Source: Silicimonas sp.
Lineage (GTDB): Bacteria > Pseudomonadota > Alphaproteobacteria > Rhodobacterales > Rhodobacteraceae
Assembly: GCA_022824525.1 (NCBI GenBank)
Contig: JAJDZT010000054.1
Location: forward strand, 1 to 64,000
Length of the DNA stretch: 64,000 nucleotides
Reading direction: 5' to 3'
Part shown: piece after piece, positions 46,283 through 48,819 of the stretch
Layout: each line of letters starts with the position of its first letter
Position numbering within the stretch: position 1 is the first letter of the stretch
Notes under the pieces: model-generated
What the model saw: the letters and a program-made list of their open reading frames with translations, nothing else
What the model was told of the DNA's origin: nothing
The model's database searches: none
Program-made: the position numbers and the translations under genes

Positions 46283-46576
46283 ATGTCGAATATGAAAACT
46301 TCCCTCGCTGTTGCTGGCGCTGTTGCCGCTGCTCTGACCGCTTCCATGACTGCTCCGGCTCACGCCCAGGCAAAAGAGAAGTGCTACGGCGTTTCGCTGG
46401 CCGGCAAGAATGACTGTGCTGCTGGCCCGGGCACGACTTGTGCCGGCACGTCCACCGTTGACTACCAGGGCAACGCCTGGACGCTGGTCGACGCTGGCAC
46501 TTGCGCCGAAATCGAACTGCCTGATGACCGCATGGGTTCGCTTGAGCCGCTCGAGCGCGACCTGCCTGCAGGCTAA
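46283..46576 (+). CDS. bufA: Bufferin-type RiPP precursor (DUF2282, BufA1-like)
   Basis: 97 aa. The signal peptide (MSNMKTSLAVAGAVAAALTA, cut after AHAQA-type site near residue 30) sends it to the periplasm. The mature part has four cysteines: EKCYGVSLAGKNDC, then TTCAGTSTVD and DAGTC. This is the DUF2282 pattern. In bufferins, the MNIO enzyme converts Cys to copper-binding thiooxazole-type groups, giving a periplasmic copper-binding peptide. The operon order precursor, DUF692, DUF2063, DoxX is exactly that of bufferin loci. AAGGA lies 13 bases upstream; Met4 is an alternative start. Confidence 0.88.
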   Translation: MSNMKTSLAVAGAVAAALTASMTAPAHAQAKEKCYGVSLAGKNDCAAGPGTTCAGTSTVDYQGNAWTLVDAGTCAEIELPDDRMGSLEPLERDLPAG

Positions 46577-46591
46577 TATCCTGACTTTTCG

Positions 46592-46628
46592 CGGCGCCTC
46601 CGCTATATCGGGGGCGCCGTTTGTTTTT
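46592..46628 (+). terminator. Internal terminator/attenuator between bufA and bufB
   Basis: CGGCGCC-T-CCG pairs with CGG-G-GGCGCCG around a CTATAT loop; TTTGTTTTT follows. It lies between the precursor stop (46576) and the enzyme start (46638). Such placement commonly lets a substrate peptide be made in excess over its modifying enzyme. Confidence 0.72.
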
Positions 46629-46637
46629 GAGGCTCAC

Positions 46638-47495
46638 ATGCTTGACGCGTCCAATCACCATTTTGACCGCCTGCCCGCCGCGCCTGGCGTCGGATACAAG
46701 CCGCAGCATTTCAGCGACCTGCTGGAGAATGCCGGTTCGGTTGAGTGGTTGGAGATACATGCGGAGAACTACATGGGCGACGGTGGCCGCCCGCTGGCGC
46801 AGCTTCGCCACCTTTCCGAGAGATTTGCCATTTCCGTGCATGGCGTTGGGCTGTCGATCGGCGGCGAAGGCCGTCTTGATCCGGACCATCTTGCGCGGCT
46901 CAAGCACCTTGTGGGCTGGACGAAGCCTGCGAGCTTTTCCGAACATCTGGCGTGGTCGACCCATGACAGCGCCTTTCTGAACGACCTGCTTCCCCTGCCT
47001 TACACGGACGAGACGCTGACCCGCGTCGCCGAACACATCGACGAAGTGCAAGAGGTCGTCGGGCGGCAGATGCTGCTGGAGAACCCGTCGTCTTACCTCG
47101 CCTTTGATGAAAGCACTTACGAGGAAACCGATTTCCTCCGCGAAGTGGCAAAACGGACCGGATGCGGCCTTCTGCTCGACGTGAACAACGTGTTTGTCAG
47201 CGCCACGAATCTTGAGACGGACCCGGTCTCTTACATTGATGCTTTCCCGCTTGATCTGGTGGGTGAAATTCACCTTGCCGGACACGATGAAGACCACGAC
47301 GATCATGGGAAGCCCCTCTTGATTGACAGCCACGGGCGCGAAGTCGCGGAACCGGTCTGGACGTTGTACGAGCATGTCATCGCCAAGGGCGGCGCGCGCC
47401 CCAGCCTGATTGAATGGGACAATGACGTGCCCGACTGGCCGACGCTTGAAGCCGAGGCCGCGCGCGCTGCGAAGATTCTGGAGACGGTCGTGTGA
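46638..47495 (+). CDS. bufB: DUF692 multinuclear iron oxidase (MNIO), bufferin-modifying enzyme
   Basis: 285 aa, TIM-barrel fold. The iron-binding residues of the family are visible in order: HAENYM near residue 35, HGVGLSIGG near 70, SEHLAW near 102, LLENPSSYL near 142, LLDVNNVFVSA near 178, HLAGHDEDHDDHG near 212, IDSHGREV near 226, and IEWDNDVPDW near 255. MNIO enzymes oxidise cysteine residues of precursor peptides. GAGG lies 9 bases before the ATG. The stop overlaps the GTG of the next gene (GTGA). Confidence 0.92.
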   Translation: MLDASNHHFDRLPAAPGVGYKPQHFSDLLENAGSVEWLEIHAENYMGDGGRPLAQLRHLSERFAISVHGVGLSIGGEGRLDPDHLARLKHLVGWTKPASFSEHLAWSTHDSAFLNDLLPLPYTDETLTRVAEHIDEVQEVVGRQMLLENPSSYLAFDESTYEETDFLREVAKRTGCGLLLDVNNVFVSATNLETDPVSYIDAFPLDLVGEIHLAGHDEDHDDHGKPLLIDSHGREVAEPVWTLYEHVIAKGGARPSLIEWDNDVPDWPTLEAEAARAAKILETVV

Positions 47496-48244
47496 TTGTC
47501 GATCAGGGCACTTTTCGGCGGGCTGTGCTTTCCCCGGAGGTTGATCGACCCGAAGGATTGTCGAACGGACACGGCCAACCGGCCGGGCGGCGGTTCGACG
47601 TCTATCGCAACAACGTCGCGGTTTCCCTGACGGAGGCGTTGGAAACCGCCTTTCCTGTGATCCGGAAACTTGTCGGTGAAGCGAACTTCAAACTTCTTGC
47701 GGGCGCGTTTTTGCGTCAGCACCCACCGTCTTCGCCGCTGATGATGTATTATGGCACGGAAATGCCGGCGTTCCTGGAGGGGTTCGGCCCGACCTCGAAC
47801 TTGGGCTACTTGCCGGATGTGGCGCGACTGGAATTGGCCTTGCGGGAAAGCTACCACGCTGCCGACGCTGCGCCGATTGATCCAGCGCGCTTGCAGGCCC
47901 TGCCCCCGGATCAGTTGATGGCGTCGACCGTTTCGCTGGCACCTTCGCTGCGCCTGATCCGGTCGCGCTGGCCCATTTTCGCCATTTGGGCGTTCAACAT
48001 GAACAATGGCCCGAAGCCTCAGGCCGGTGCCGAGGACGTGGTCATTCTGCGCGCCGAGATGGACCCGGAGCCCATCCTTTTGCCGCCCGGAGGTGGCGCG
48101 TTCCTGGCAGCCTTGCTGGACGGAGCGACACTCGGAACAGCCTTTGAAACCGGAATGGGGGAGGCCGAGGCGTTCGACCTGTCCCAAATCCTTGCCATCC
48201 TGATTGGCGCAAATGCCATTGCTGACCTTGGAGAGACCCTATGA
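47492..48244 (+). CDS. bufC: DUF2063 protein, MNIO partner (BufC-like)
   Basis: 250 aa. An N-terminal helical DUF2063 domain (about residues 5-100) has the typical RFDVYRNNVAVSLTEALETAFPVI followed by LVGEANFKLLAGAFLR. The C-terminal domain (about 120-250) would bind the precursor leader or mature peptide and present it to the oxidase. The earlier annotation as DNA-binding protein is not supported by a visible HTH. It overlaps bufB by GTGA and DoxX by ATGA, so all three are coupled. Confidence 0.88.
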   Translation: MIVDQGTFRRAVLSPEVDRPEGLSNGHGQPAGRRFDVYRNNVAVSLTEALETAFPVIRKLVGEANFKLLAGAFLRQHPPSSPLMMYYGTEMPAFLEGFGPTSNLGYLPDVARLELALRESYHAADAAPIDPARLQALPPDQLMASTVSLAPSLRLIRSRWPIFAIWAFNMNNGPKPQAGAEDVVILRAEMDPEPILLPPGGGAFLAALLDGATLGTAFETGMGEAEAFDLSQILAILIGANAIADLGETL

Positions 48245-48819
48245 TCCGCACCCTACTATCCCTGCCCGACCGTGCGATTTCCTGGGTCGAGCCGATGTCT
48301 ACGCCGGTCCTGACCACCCTGGCCCGTTTTGTCTTTGCGGCTGTATTGCTGATGTATTTCGTGAACTCCGGCCTGACCAAGACTGGAGAGGACTTTGCCG
48401 GGCTGTTCGCACCAAGCTTCAACGCCTTCGCGCAAATCTTTCCGAAGGGCGCGGAAGCAGCCAGCTACGACATCACGCAGGCCACGCAATTCCAGAAGAT
48501 TGTCATTCTGGCCGGAACCTGGGCCGAGTTCGTACTGCCTGCCCTGATCGTCGTCGGATTGTTTACCCGCGCGGCGGCGTTTGGCATGATCGGTTTCGTT
48601 ATCGTGCAGAGCCTGACCGACATTTACGCCCATGGCGGCGAAGCCGGTGTGTGGTTCGACAACCTGAGCGATGCGGCGATCCTCGACCAGCGCGCATTCT
48701 GGGTGTTCCTGCTGCTCTATCTCGTCTTCAAGGGTGGCGGCCCGCTGTCGCTGGACCGCTTCATCCTCAGAAGTGAGACGTCTCCTTATCTGGACGACCC
48801 GCAGCTATCGCGAGGATAG
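48241..48819 (+). CDS. DoxX-family membrane protein of the bufferin operon
   Basis: 192 aa with four hydrophobic helices: LARFVFAAVLLMYFVNSGL near residue 27, FQKIVILAGTWAEFVLPALI near 83, FGMIGFVIVQSL near 113, and FWVFLLLYLVFKGGGPLSLDR near 153. The last is the DoxX end motif. DoxX proteins often sit with copper or oxidative stress systems and are the fourth gene of bufferin/gig operons; a role in electron transfer or membrane redox support is inferred. Its 3' end overlaps a convergent gene by 53 bp. Confidence 0.88.
   Translation: MIRTLLSLPDRAISWVEPMSTPVLTTLARFVFAAVLLMYFVNSGLTKTGEDFAGLFAPSFNAFAQIFPKGAEAASYDITQATQFQKIVILAGTWAEFVLPALIVVGLFTRAAAFGMIGFVIVQSLTDIYAHGGEAGVWFDNLSDAAILDQRAFWVFLLLYLVFKGGGPLSLDRFILRSETSPYLDDPQLSRG

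Follow-up and report, generated by a model that had tools for sequence, protein, structure and literature searches.

A Buf1-type bufferin operon of Rhodobacteraceae with two conserved candidate control elements

Organization of the locus

In the window, by which we mean the whole 64,000-nucleotide stretch of Silicimonas sp. DNA that was analyzed, four genes lie in series on the plus strand and encode, in the order A-B-C-X, a DUF2282 precursor, an MNIO enzyme, a DUF2063 partner, and a DoxX-like membrane protein. These genes and the putative control features around them are as follows.

46074..46098, plus strand: terminator-like hairpin with a T-run, 3′ of thrS and 5′ of bufA (consensus match, 5 pairs)
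46156..46190, plus strand: tandem-palindrome element, a variant whose palindromes are separated by one additional base (gapped matrix, 20.1 bits)
46283..46576, plus strand: bufA, Buf1/DUF2282 precursor, 97 aa (PF10048, 87.2 bits; cut-off 22.4)
46591..46620, plus strand: GC-rich hairpin with a 12-bp stem (10 GC pairs), then TTGTTTTTGA (terminator scan, folding, and comparison)
46638..47495, plus strand: bufB, MNIO (DUF692) maturase, 285 aa (NCBIfam MNIO_BufB, 376.3 bits; cut-off 310)
47492..48244, plus strand: bufC, DUF2063 partner, 250 aa, GTG start (PF09836, 86.8 bits; cut-off 27.2)
48241..48819, plus strand: doxX-like membrane protein gene, 192 aa (PF07681, 24.9 bits; cut-off 23.6)

An earlier reading of this DNA, made from the sequence alone, had proposed a DUF2282-DUF692-DUF2063-DoxX operon at 46283..48819 with its last three genes chained by overlaps, and had named HMM searches with DUF2282, DUF692, and DUF2063 as a check. 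The open reading frames lie where it had put them, all three of these models and that for DoxX score above their Pfam cut-offs, and the overlaps are present as GTGA (bufB stop and bufC start) and ATGA (bufC and doxX). BufB, which passes the equivalog cut-off of its NCBIfam model, also scores 346.5 bits against the Pfam MbnB_TglH_ChrH model (cut-off 25); the DoxX assignment is barely above its threshold (24.9 vs 23.6 bits). The whole genome (a 4.07 Mb assembly, 94% complete) contains a single MNIO match and a single DUF2282 match. The bufferin architecture claimed by the sequence-only reading holds for every genomic mark of Buf1 that was examined, namely gene order, families, apparent signal peptide, Cys spacing, and ligands. 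As judged by these sequence features, the locus is a Buf1-type bufferin operon of Rhodobacteraceae, of a widespread and already known kind. The four genes themselves are of the usual sort; the novelty lies in a pair of conserved, probable control elements that the earlier reading did not include, the hairpin between bufA and bufB and the tandem palindromes upstream of bufA. The terminator-like site at 46074..46098 is of a different standing, as shuffles yield equally many such sites in the region; a terminator scan of the whole region returned 4 sites vs 3.9 in shuffles.

At least 516 relatives are encoded elsewhere, and the best 80 were kept, with BufB 73–81% identical in the best segment and all from Rhodobacteraceae, Rhodobacterales, or Alphaproteobacteria. 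Each of these 80 has bufA in front of bufB, and the operon is therefore not a chance association. Genomic neighbors (ORFs of at least 90 codons) were surveyed in 42 loci chosen from 81, some of them cut short: thrS lies upstream in 32, doxX relatives are found in 31, an ArsC/Spx-like gene recurs in 20, and thyX, named by eye, recurs in 18. Because thrS is so often upstream, the operon looks vertically inherited at a fixed chromosomal place. DUF2282 is carried by 40 of 61 family genomes, 47 of 142 in a draw from the class, and 38 of 200 in a draw from the phylum. The present analysis thus verifies, for a large group of bacteria, a bufferin operon with a stable location in the chromosome.

The precursor and its maturase

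The four Cys residues that the sequence-only reading had noted in the 97-residue BufA (in EKCYG, KNDC, TTCAG, and AGTC) are read at positions 34, 45, 53, and 74. Their 11-8-21 spacing is common to all 80 bufA genes compared, which comprise that of the window and 79 relatives, L070 being omitted with its start cut off. In a single one of these genes, a fifth Cys is encoded 42 residues ahead of the other four, perhaps because the start was set too far upstream. By eye, BufA begins with an apparent signal peptide that ends in AHA before Q29. In the characterized Buf1 system, the central Cys residues are reported to be modified and the first and last to form a disulfide (PMC12452194). The tail behind the last Cys (window 46505-46573) lies largely beyond the Pfam domain, and RDLP or a close variant forms the C-terminal end in 78 of 80 bufA products. 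Tandem bufA copies precede bufB at three loci (L088, L092, and L010), with the upstream element 5′ of the first copy in L088 and L092.

The claim that the MNIO retains all iron-ligand motifs stands as well. The ligands reported for TglH are His71, His107, Glu151, Asp184, Asn187, His216, Asp229, His231, and Glu258 (PMC10880893), and a HMMER alignment to 8hci gives all nine counterparts in BufB: H68, H103, E148, D181, N184, H212, D230, H232, and E259. The loss of such ligands in a DUF692 alignment had been named as grounds for rejecting the assignment, and none is lost. Of seven loose expressions, one per ligand motif block, six match all 80 relatives and the seventh matches 77 of the 80. In HvfB, replacement of the site-3 residues N175, D242, and H244 is reported to abolish activity (PMC13419390), and by our reading these correspond to three of the nine aligned ligands of BufB. 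BufB was also aligned to 3bww, which places K21-P22 and D261-N262 at the positions that contact an EGKCG substrate; BufB has neither the second Arg nor the Phe that EGKCG-type enzymes possess. This finding at K21-P22 and N262 agrees with a report that DUF2282-type MNIOs have lost the EGKCG-contact residues, an Arg-Arg pair and a Phe after the catalytic Asp (PMC12668002).

A tandem-palindrome element upstream of bufA

In its consensus form, the upstream element consists of two palindromes of 14 bp each, TNACG-N4-CGTGA and NCACG-N4-CGTGA, which stand 15 bp apart. A dyad in k-mer counts prompted an iterative matrix of 34 positions, which, built and scored on the same 66 non-redundant upstream regions, exceeds 20 bits in 58 of them; the maximum in 330 single-base shuffles is 10.4. 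The window is among the eight that fail, at –3.4 bits without a gap, and rises to 20.1 bits once a single additional base between the palindromes is tolerated for a penalty of 3. When the 300 nt searched in the window were shuffled 300 times and scored by this gapped rule, no shuffle reached 20.1 bits, and the best scored 9.4. The one-base shift is common to the window, L034, and L039. L010, whose upstream region was still counted as a miss, is the downstream copy of a tandem bufA pair, where absence of the element is expected. A TANNNT box follows 21 or 22 nt behind the element in 39 of the 58 upstream regions; no TANNNT is found at this usual distance in the window.

The element is a candidate operator and could serve as bait for its regulator. 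It may instead be recognized by a multi-target regulator, for example a known copper regulator, a reading that we consider possible and somewhat less probable than a dedicated site. The location just upstream of a –10-like box is one from which activators of any family could act. When 20 genomes were searched with the full tandem pattern, allowing up to 3 mismatches, each gave 5–12 matches vs 1–7 for a reversed control pattern, so that further element sites may exist. Against a many-target regulator, a comparison of strings among the matches listed (from 17 of the 20 genomes) identified all 12 with 0 or 1 mismatch as the bufA element, whereas every listed match located elsewhere differs at 2 or 3 positions; one of these latter strings recurs in many genomes and resembles conserved coding sequence. 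A local regulator was also sought in the 42 surveyed loci, where inspection by eye yielded only a MarR-like family (about 6.6 kb downstream in 5 of 42) and an ArsR-like family (about 4 kb upstream in 4 of 42), neither of them at the window's locus.

The distribution of the element can be set beside that of NrsF, which negatively regulates SigF in Caulobacter (PMC3511200). NrsF has no match at an E value of 0.001 in the window's genome, a result that a gap in the 94% complete assembly could explain. Of 61 family genomes, 11 have NrsF, and in 8 of these 11 it lies no more than about 4 kb from a DUF2282 match. Among 33 family loci, whose shared ancestry means that the counts are not independent, the element (at least 15 bits) occurs in 0 of 6 that are NrsF-linked, in 17 of 24 from genomes without NrsF (leaving 7 of these 24 in which it is missing), and in all 3 from genomes left out of the NrsF search; two further NrsF-linked genomes have no locus in this set. 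When the reported consensus of the Caulobacter SigF promoter (PMC3511200) was turned into a loose expression, 1 of the 6 NrsF-linked loci matched, one of the six having been read on the wrong strand. Given the lack of an NrsF match in the genome, Caulobacter-type SigF/NrsF control has probably been replaced here by another, candidate activator.

Outside the family, the element was found in none of 47 sound loci, which are the 49 best-scoring loci retrieved in the class and phylum draws, a subset of all matches there, less L191 (in-frame stop) and L197 (out of register). Three outside loci (L174, L183, and L194) carry one isolated palindrome (TCACG-N4-CGTG type) about 70–90 nt upstream of bufA, and in L174 and L194 a GTAAC string near it is reminiscent of a SigF-type –35 box. 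These single palindromes possibly belong to a broader regulator.

A hairpin between bufA and bufB

The hairpin of the window has a folding z of –3.96, and none of 200 shuffles is equally stable. Net pairs were counted in its counterparts with G-U pairs allowed and one mismatch subtracted. By this measure, a stem of at least 9 net pairs is found in 71 of 81 bufA-bufB junctions (the window and its 80 relatives, L032-L111) and in 62 of the 72 that form a non-redundant set after removal of similar junctions. In the controls, such a stem appeared in 24 of 360 dinucleotide-shuffled sequences and in 3 of 71 stretches of equal length taken from upstream of bufA. The sequence of the stem varies between genera, and the inner arm takes 48 forms in the 71 stems. 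It changes little across 18 Ruegeria-type junctions, and the case for the hairpin therefore rests on the comparison between genera. A second draw of family genomes, at least 3 loci of which come from the same genomes as loci among the best 80 relatives, has the stem in 27 of 30 junctions of at least 40 nt.

What follows the stem is less uniform. Within 10 nt downstream of the 71 stems, TTTT occurs in 9 and TTT in 22, and in some relatives the stem as counted includes the T-run, paired with A. With TTTT in just 9 of 71, simple intrinsic termination fits poorly for most relatives. The mostly absent T-runs could also be taken as a sign that the hairpin plays no part in dosage, being just the remnant of a terminator or a GC-rich fold, as could its patchier occurrence in 48 loci outside the family, where, in a count made without a shuffle control, the stem is found in 8 of 19 junctions of at least 40 nt, 25 junctions are shorter, and 4 loci have no bufB in reach. 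We regard this explanation as unlikely, since the stem is kept in most non-redundant junctions of the family even though its sequence differs between genera. From this pattern of conservation, a functional hairpin that stabilizes or partly terminates the transcript, and so leaves more precursor mRNA than maturase mRNA, is probably the better account; in the window, partial termination would also be possible at the T-rich tail. A hairpin of this kind may explain how a metal-binding peptide that depends on a maturase can be produced in bulk with little enzyme.

No Rfam family matches positions 45900-49300 up to E = 1. The available portions of PMC12452194 and PMC12668002 contain no mention that we found of a hairpin, terminator, or stem-loop, and the titles and abstract openings of the literature surveyed refer to no such elements in bufferin operons, which does not in itself prove their absence from it.

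Relation to known systems and a proposed mechanism

Among the closest known arrangements is the Buf1 operon CC3254-3257 of Caulobacter, described as DUF2282-DUF692-DUF2063-DoxX (PMC3511200, PMC12452194), with which the window shares an identical gene order. In contrast to that system, the genome of the window has no NrsF match; the tandem palindromes and the bufA-bufB hairpin are features of the window and its relatives, Caulobacter's own junction and promoter lying outside the comparison. The captophorins (oxazolin, fontiphorin, and gonophorin) likewise pair an MNIO with a DUF2063-type partner and are reported to involve Cys-derived thiooxazole chemistry (PMC12668002). They are built of EGKCG repeats, whereas the precursor of the window is a DUF2282 protein with four Cys, and the substrate-contact residues of their enzymes differ from those of BufB, as is reported for the DUF2282 group. 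An EGKCG captophorin of the HvfA/HvfB type was accordingly rejected, with 235.1 of 360 bits for the HvfB model and no EGKCG repeat in the 97 residues; the HvfC and HvfX models also stay under their NCBIfam cut-offs (45.9 of 142 and 24 of 80 bits). Buf2 membership was set aside at 18.6 of 60 bits for the BufA2 model. BufB is related in sequence to the solved MbnB structures (7dz9 and 7tcr) of the methanobactin system MbnABC, from which the window differs in its DUF2063 partner and in the apparent signal peptide of its precursor, and a methanobactin operon was rejected at 50.9 of 325 bits for the MbnB model.

By analogy with the characterized Buf1 product, which is reported to chelate both Cu(I) and Cu(II) and to aid growth in excess copper (PMC12452194), we infer thiooxazole formation and copper binding or buffering by the product of the window, as the sequence-only reading had done for a periplasmic copper-buffering peptide. 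It is improbable that the operon serves mainly another stress (gold, chromate, oxidative, or sulfur) with copper binding incidental: the Caulobacter homologues are reported to be induced by dichromate through SigF (PMC3511200), gig operons are described as gold-responsive with DoxX hinting at other stresses (PMC12452194), and the control region here is unlike that of Caulobacter and lacks NrsF, but the copper chelation and protection just cited for a characterized Buf1 product argue against such a role.

Returning to the preferred reading, we have considerable confidence in a single explanation that joins a Buf1-type operon for a predicted exported copper-binding peptide with dosage set by the hairpin and an activator other than SigF/NrsF. 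On the grounds of homology, BufBC would recognize the precursor in part through its signal peptide and oxidize the central Cys45 and Cys53 to thiooxazoles in the cytoplasm, the outer pair Cys34-Cys74 would form a disulfide, and DoxX would have an auxiliary role. The modified peptide is predicted to be exported and to bind excess copper in the periplasm. In terms of control, comparison among relatives suggests that the hairpin 3′ of bufA protects or partly terminates the transcript, such that bufA mRNA would exceed maturase mRNA, and that a trans-acting activator distinct from SigF/NrsF may bind the tandem palindromes immediately 5′ of the promoter. A broader generalization, to which we give an even chance, is that the bufferin operons of the Roseobacter group form a separate control class, in which a dedicated activator on tandem palindromes would replace SigF/NrsF and a hairpin conserved in structure would set a large excess of precursor over maturase.

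Beyond the operon, a small protein that appears membrane-like by eye is encoded on the minus strand at 48767-49135, convergent with the operon and slightly overlapping its end. It matches no Pfam or NCBIfam model and has relatives in 15 of the 42 loci compared.
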